The notes under the pieces: generated by a model
Told to the model about the DNA's origin: nothing
The model's input: only the letters and a program-made list of their open reading frames with translations
The model's database searches: none
Program-made: the position numbers and the translations under genes
Part shown: positions 16,607 through 35,769 of the stretch, one piece after another
Position numbering within the stretch: position 1 is the first letter of the stretch
Layout: every line of letters begins with the position of its first letter
NCBI GenBank assembly: GCA_036489315.1
Contig: DASXFZ010000010.1
Coordinates: 62,001 to 126,000 of the forward strand
Length of the DNA: 64,000 bases
Source of the DNA: Candidatus Cybelea sp.
Lineage (GTDB): Bacteria > Vulcanimicrobiota > Vulcanimicrobiia > Vulcanimicrobiales > Vulcanimicrobiaceae
Direction of reading: 5' to 3'

Positions 16607-16632
16607 GTCCTTCGACAGGCTCAGGATGACAA
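16607..16632. repeat. Interspersed repeat of the CCTTCGACA-gctcagg family
   Basis: The + strand reads gtccttcgacaggctcagg followed by atgacaa. The same core (tccttcgacaagctcagg) recurs at 35401. On the minus strand it places GAAGGA at the correct distance before the TTG start of the Clp_N gene. It sits between that gene and tRNA-Pro. Confidence 0.65.
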
Positions 16633-35252: not shown

Positions 35253-35280
35253 TTGACAAAGGGCAGGTCGCGAGTATCCT
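35253..35280 (+). promoter_or_regulatory. Promoter of the M-box / Mg2+ transporter unit
   Basis: -35 TTGACA (35253-35258, perfect consensus), a 16-bp spacer and -10 TATCCT (35275-35280). Transcription would begin near 35287, just ahead of the riboswitch. Confidence 0.75.
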
Positions 35281-35290
35281 GGTTAAGGAT

Positions 35291-35510
35291 TCCTCGTTAG
35301 GTGAGGCGTCTGCACGAAGAGATGCCGCTGCCCGGAAAGGTCGAGAGACCCCAACGGGTAACCAGATCCCGCCGAATCAAGGCGGAATCTAATGCGGCCG
35401 TCCTTCGACAAGCTCAGGACAAGCTCAGGACAAGCTCAGAGTGACGAGTCCGAGGTGACGATGCTGTCGAAGGTCTAGGTTGTGCAGTGCTAAAGCTCGA
35501 CACTGAGGGA
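35291..35510 (+). promoter_or_regulatory. M-box (ykoK-type) magnesium riboswitch with an expanded arm
   Basis: The conserved M-box strings occur in order: CGTTAGGTGAGGC (35295), GATGCCGCTGCCCGGAAA, CCCCAACGGGTAACCAGA, AATCAAGG, ATCTAATGC, and then GTGCTAAAGCTC (35487-35498). P1 can close CCTCG at 35292 with TGAGG at 35504. Aptamers of this class bind Mg2+ and switch off Mg2+ importers. Between TAATGC and GTGCTAAAGC a typical member has roughly 25-30 nt; here there are nearly 90, mostly an inverted-repeat element. The rest of the core looks intact, so it should still fold. Confidence 0.88.
35402..35473. repeat. Inverted-repeat element inside the riboswitch arm, with 11-bp tandem units
   Basis: CCTTCGACA at 35402-35410 pairs with TGTCGAAGG at 35465-35473. 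Just inside the left arm GACAAGCTCAG is repeated three times without gaps (35407-35439). The left end matches the repeat at 16607-16632. The element therefore forms a hairpin extension rather than interrupting the core. Confidence 0.75.
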
Positions 35511-35542
35511 GATTGCGCGGCCTGTCCGCGTGAGGTTTCTCG

Positions 35543-35580
35543 AACTGTCGGCCTGCGAGGAGCAGCGGCAGTTTTTTATT
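35543..35580 (+). terminator. Intrinsic terminator of the M-box expression platform
   Basis: AACTGTCG (35543-35550) pairs with CGGCAGTT (35566-35573; one G-U pair), with an inner CTGC/GCAG, followed by TTTTTTATTTT. It begins 33 nt after the aptamer, a normal place for a Mg2+-controlled terminator. Confidence 0.8.
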
Positions 35581-35604
35581 TTGGAAAGGGGGTGAGGCCT
35601 CGCC

Positions 35605-35703
35605 ATGGATGACGGACCAACTAATCGATCTCGCCGGCGGCTCTCGAAAAGCCGCTTGCTTAACGCTGCGTCCGCTCGTCCCGGGGCAGCACGCATGAGC
35701 TAA
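35605..35703 (+). CDS. Short ORF in the transporter leader
   Basis: A 32-codon ORF beginning MDDGPTNRSRRRLSKSRLL and ending at TAA 35701-35703. A purine-rich GGGGGTGAGG lies eight bases before the ATG. It is rich in Arg and Ser and has no hydrophobic part. It lies between the terminator and the 16-codon ORF. It may be a leader ORF or chance. Confidence 0.35.
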   Translation: MDDGPTNRSRRRLSKSRLLNAASARPGAARMS

Positions 35704-35718: not shown

Positions 35719-35769
35719 ATGAGAAAACTACCGAAGGTTCTGCGCTACAGGCGCTCGCTGGTCGAATGA
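35719..35769 (+). CDS. 16-residue leader peptide overlapping the transporter start
   Basis: MRKLPKVLRYRRSLVE then TGA. The ribosome-binding site AGGAGG is seven bases before ATG and is the best in the region. The stop TGA overlaps the ATG of the transporter as ATGA, so transporter translation is probably coupled to this peptide. It is short and strongly basic, like a regulatory leader rather than a structural protein. Confidence 0.6.
   Translation: MRKLPKVLRYRRSLVE

Follow-up and report, generated by a model that had tools for sequence, protein, structure and literature searches.

REP-like repeat sequence in the P6 arm of M-box riboswitch leaders of Candidatus Cybelea

M-box/NrmT loci, REP-like repeats and repeats lying in or beside functional RNAs are each already known. 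The palindromic elements of Rickettsia are found inside functional genes, mainly protein-coding ones, where they are tolerated, and the STRR sequences, which are tandem heptamers, reportedly occur inside the RNase P RNA of heterocyst-forming cyanobacteria, in work by Vioque from 1997 that we know by its title. The former resemble the case described here in being tolerated palindromic repeats, although the repeats themselves are different and their hosts mainly code for protein; the latter likewise place genomic repeats within a functional structured RNA, that RNA being, however, a ribozyme and not a riboswitch. Among repeats or MITEs associated with riboswitches in the open papers searched, the only close case is the pneumococcal BOX element of the trp operon, placed between a pair of T-box riboswitches in a leader that appears to keep working (PMC3049150). 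There too a dispersed repeat is joined to a riboswitch leader, but BOX stands between two aptamers and was reported from one species, whereas the repeat considered here lies inside an aptamer helix. None of the open papers searched describes, for several species, a dispersed repeat that lies within an aptamer helix of a riboswitch. Shin et al. (2014, PMC4072509) describe M-boxes upstream of Nramp-related (NrmT) genes, mostly from Clostridia and Deltaproteobacteria; the present locus shares with them the aptamer, the terminator arrangement and the regulated gene family, and differs in that its P6 is filled by a genome-wide repeat.

The window is a 64,000-nt stretch of contig DASXFZ010000010.1 of Candidatus Cybelea sp., and the leader parts, the transporter gene and the further repeat copy described below lie on its forward strand. 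A cmscan search recovered an RF00380 (M-box, ykoK leader) aptamer at 35286–35514, also supported by the predicted fold. The match covers model positions 1–169 with 119.2 bits (E = 4.5e-26) and exceeds the curated cut-off of 44 bits across the entire model. A preliminary description made by reading the letters had placed the M-box core strings correctly and drawn the unit at 35291–35585; its start has to be moved to 35286, while its end takes in the expression platform. It had proposed this very search, expecting a high-scoring hit of full span with a large insert in one arm, and such a hit was obtained, with the model running to 35514 and not ending at about 35400. Sixty-eight nucleotides fall outside the model, all of them in the last small arm, 3' of the P3–P5 domain. 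We take this enlarged arm (35399–35479) to be P6 from its position in the model, following the helix naming of the crystal structure. It measures 81 nt, against 15–22 nt in clearly repeat-free congeners, in keeping with the earlier estimate of an excess of about 60 nt. The repeat-derived element occupies 35402–35473, its first part matching other genomic copies, and is bounded by CCTTCGACA (35402–35410) and TGTCGAAGG (35465–35473), which pair as an extension of P6. It includes three perfect 11-bp tandem units of GACAAGCTCAG (35407–35439; TRF score 66, 100% match), and both these units and the framing sequences are as they had been read before. TGTCGAAGG is the reverse complement of the repeat start, and sister genomes have composite elements with such a layout; it may be what is left of a copy in inverted orientation, or of a palindromic composite. 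Further strings of the leader are CTAATGC at 35389 and GTGCTAAAGC at 35487. The predicted RNA fold of 35286–35514 (-90.9 kcal/mol, z -3.1) comprises the M-box helices together with a 9-bp extension formed by CCUUCGACA and UGUCGAAGG, as anticipated by the proposal that the complementary ends extend the helix and leave the core intact.

The surroundings of the aptamer are those of a regulated leader, with an Nramp-related gene downstream and an expression platform whose terminator is kept in relatives. A sigma-70-like promoter, TTGACA-16-TATCCT (35253–35280), ends 5 nt 5' of the aptamer; the consensus scan gave 10/12 matches with 0.1 expected, and the same arrangement is seen upstream of the M-boxes of relatives. 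On the 3' side, a short hairpin of the expression platform recognized by eye (35514–35532), whose counterpart in two congeners (G002 and G011) carries CTGTCGAAGG, is followed by an intrinsic terminator at 35545–35577 with the stem CTGTCG/CGGCAG and then T6. This terminator, already proposed from the sequence and conserved in relatives, was missed by a simple terminator scan because its loop exceeds 8 nt. The gene at 35766–37097 matches PF01566 (E = 5e-92), its product scores below the PRK00701 and TIGR01197 cut-offs, and its closest solved structure is 7qia (E = 9e-93), which we take to be the Eggerthella NRMT, with MntH structures at E of about 1e-22 or weaker. With a sequence nearer to NRMT than to the Mn2+/Fe2+ transporter MntH and an M-box upstream, it is a candidate Nramp-related Mg2+ transporter (NrmT/NRMT), as would be expected for an M-box-controlled gene (PMC4072509).

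Two small open reading frames were also noted 3' of the terminator. The one directly adjoining it (35605–35703) has a strong Shine-Dalgarno sequence, AAAGGGGGTGA, and the product MDDGPTNRSRRRLSKSRLLNAASARPGAARMS, and its MDDGP start and Shine-Dalgarno sequence recur in most members of the genus and more loosely in other genera. The product, which we take to resemble the MgtL leader peptide, is a leader-peptide candidate; in M. tuberculosis, too, there is a small uORF under the control of an M-box (PMC12810186). The other (35719–35769, MRKLPKVLRYRRSLVE) overlaps the transporter start by ATGA; its counterparts in relatives are longer and end similarly (YWRSLVD in G003, YWRSL in G001), and here it appears to have been shortened mid-way. 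The M-box and transporter gene are adjacent in the window, while in one congener, G013, a ~600-aa open frame of unassigned function lies between them (locus L171, 4442–6299).

The repeat itself belongs to a dispersed family. Pattern searches counted 32 copies of CTTCGACARGCTCAG in the 3.09-Mb genome to which the window belongs and none of the same pattern read backwards as a control. The fuller form, or core, of the repeat is TCCTTCGACARGCTCAGGATGACA, often found in tandem or in opposed pairs, and within the unit GUCCU and AGGAC can pair as a stem. That the insert begins with a repeat also present at 16607 was borne out by CTTCGACAGGCTCAG at 16610–16624, in the dispersed-repeat copy TCCTTCGACAGGCTCAGGATGACA (16608–16631) that lies just 3' of a tRNA gene. 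A looser pattern gave 3–87 copies per genome in 18/18 congeneric genomes of these soil bacteria (control 0); most of the family's other genera had few copies or none, and the pattern was nearly absent beyond the family. Exact copies in 11 public viral contigs indicate that the sequence is not confined to the genus. As to its placement elsewhere, the same genome has copies immediately 3' of two tRNA genes, at 16608–16631 and at locus L060 (the tRNA at L060 recognized by eye), and GGATGACA of the repeat supplies the ATG that opens long frames of 198 and 424 codons at L054 and L040, which by eye are PdxT-like and 3-hydroxyacyl-CoA dehydrogenase-like.

Like REP/BIME and other small palindromic repeats, this family is short, imperfectly palindromic, dispersed in many copies (32 in this genome) and arranged in opposed pairs or in tandem. 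It differs in that no RAYT-type transposase (Y1_Tnp) was detected in any of the 18 genomes of the genus, including that of the window, in searches with positive controls, and for this reason we name it REP-like only; no named REP family is assigned to its letters here, and these had no match in the open literature searched. Given the absence of Y1_Tnp from this genome and the genus, we rejected spread driven by RAYT. Of the features of MITEs, inverted ends are present at the M-box insert and no target-site duplication was seen by eye at this one locus. We rejected the idea that the 72-nt element is a copy of another whole element, given that only its first 20–47 nt recur elsewhere, with the exception of one weak 56-nt match in G003. 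The preliminary description had spoken of a mobile-like dispersed repeat within a functional riboswitch: the repeat identity and the kept core stand, while "mobile" derives from the dispersal and "functional" from conservation.

That conservation emerged from a comparison of 18 congeneric genomes (G000 being that of the window), 14 of which hold a complete M-box; all are drafts, several of them MAGs by name, and local assembly error is possible at single loci such as that of G003. The 112-nt 5' core, up to GCGGC, is nearly invariant in the 14 species, against an identity of only 0.58–0.84 between genomes at third positions of conserved Nramp codons, and the core in the window differs from the commonest sequence by one change, common to G017. 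A stretch of this length with one difference from most relatives points to purifying selection on the core. The arm that follows, from GCGGC to GTGCAGTGC, is entirely variable in the genus, conserved in neither sequence nor length, and when folded the arms form helices with the closing pairs near the arm ends. When arms cut by hand from the alignments were scored against the repeat consensus forms, with dinucleotide-shuffle controls, seven of the 14 matched the genus repeat well above shuffles (z of 16.6 in G016, 10 in G000 and in G013, 5.4 in G007, 5.1 in G017, 4.8 in G015 and 4.7 in G008), and for each of them 0/120 shuffles reached the score. The arm of G016 contains a 25-nt exact match to the repeat consensus. 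Five arms (G001, G002, G009, G011 and G014) are near background and form ordinary short hairpins like those outside the genus, two (G005 and G010) show marginal similarity, and 16/16 arms from outside the genus are near background. The repeat runs forward in G000, G015, G016 and G017 and is reversed in G007, G008 and G013. The case first described is thus not an isolated one, as judged from these sequences: the same arm of sister species carries repeat-derived sequence, and in G003 a repeat composite replaces the core. The leaders of relatives had been named as a check; no single long arm dissimilar to repeats is common to them, and five have short arms.

No RF00380 match was found in the close relative G003. 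Its orthologous leader retains the promoter, GGATTCCTCGTTAGG, TCGACAGTGAGG and the terminator, one P1 strand being kept, and the remainder is filled by a 115-nt sequence with one forward and one reversed repeat. Parts of this sequence recur as a composite at many loci in G003, G009, G014 and G016, the longer matches being 73–96% alike. The nearest relatives of G003 are G009 and G014, in a clade with support 99, and both have intact M-boxes and short arms; a repeat composite in the same leader is, at the level of sequence, associated with aptamer loss in G003. M-boxes without their 3' half, with a terminator-like T-run kept, were also observed at L183 (G012) and L193 (G027).

From these comparisons we consider it highly probable that a REP/BIME-like repeat entered P6 of a Mg2+-sensing M-box, leaving the core unchanged, and that this M-box acts on an Nramp-related Mg2+ transporter gene through transcription termination. 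A short repeat scattered through the genus would enter a peripheral helix that is free of conserved sequence, the complementary ends of the element would let the RNA fold the insert outward into a lengthened P6, and the Mg2+-binding P1–P5 core would stay as it was, whereas any insert into the core would disappear or would abolish regulation. As P6 lacks conserved sequence, an insert with paired ends adds helix and spares the sensor, and the toleration of inserts in P6 against their loss from the core would leave an invariant core with a free arm. The long-arm leader has probably retained Mg2+ switching. That the leader is instead decaying, with the repeat as a sign of decay as in G003, seems unlikely to us: decay does occur in the genus, with the core of G003 and the 3' half of the G012 M-box lost, but the core in the window shows one change in 112 positions against most relatives, neither promoter nor terminator has been lost, and the predicted fold is intact. 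The opposite proposal, that the extended P6 has been recruited, its hairpin altering how fast the RNA folds, its affinity for Mg2+ or the stability of the mRNA, or binding a repeat-recognizing protein, would account for repeat-derived sequence in the same arm of several species, yet neither the sequence nor the length of the arm is conserved and five species have no repeat arm, and we hold it to be similarly improbable. Chance convergence of hairpin arms rich in CTTCG/CGAAG on repeat-like letters is scarcely credible; the marginal arms of G005 and G010 are hard to tell from chance, but the shuffle controls for all seven clear arms, as well as the exact 25-nt copy that G016 holds, speak against it.

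How often P6 received such sequence is a separate matter. The best reading of the data is that the repeat family colonizes or turns over in P6 and is tolerated there, while elsewhere it destroys the switch. We incline evenly for and against its stronger form, in which P6 is a recurrent landing pad and safe harbour that one repeat family entered independently in several lineages and in both orientations. A single palindromic repeat pair might instead have entered P6 in the ancestor of the genus and given rise to the present arms by decay, loss of one half, tandem expansion and shortening, with no need for recurrent capture. The deepest split of the genus (G007 versus the rest) does have repeat-like arms on either side, the arm in the window retains a forward start and a reversed end, and GGTRACGATG-like letters after the repeat are common to G000, G015 and G017 by eye; by eye, too, presence and absence on the tree suit a single ancestral gain followed by at least three losses about as well as several gains, up to six. 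Against this stands the exact copy in G016. At third positions of conserved Nramp codons, G016 is only 59% identical to G000 and 69–80% identical to its nearer relatives, among them two with short arms. Together with the mixed orientation of the repeat among species, this leads us to favor recent turnover, and a single ancestral entry, though possible, appears to us somewhat doubtful. We infer that repeats moved into P6, rather than that one ancestral insert was reshaped, and that selection presumably confines them to this arm.

The leaders of this genus offer a natural series of insertions in one aptamer with an otherwise unchanged core. At one end stand the tolerated ones, in P6 of several species, and at the other the destructive one of G003. 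Such a series allows testing which riboswitch helices accept foreign sequence, and whether repeats give rise to new RNA helices. If P6 is indeed a landing pad, the evolution of this riboswitch would amount to replicate natural insertion experiments, in one of which (G003) the aptamer was lost.
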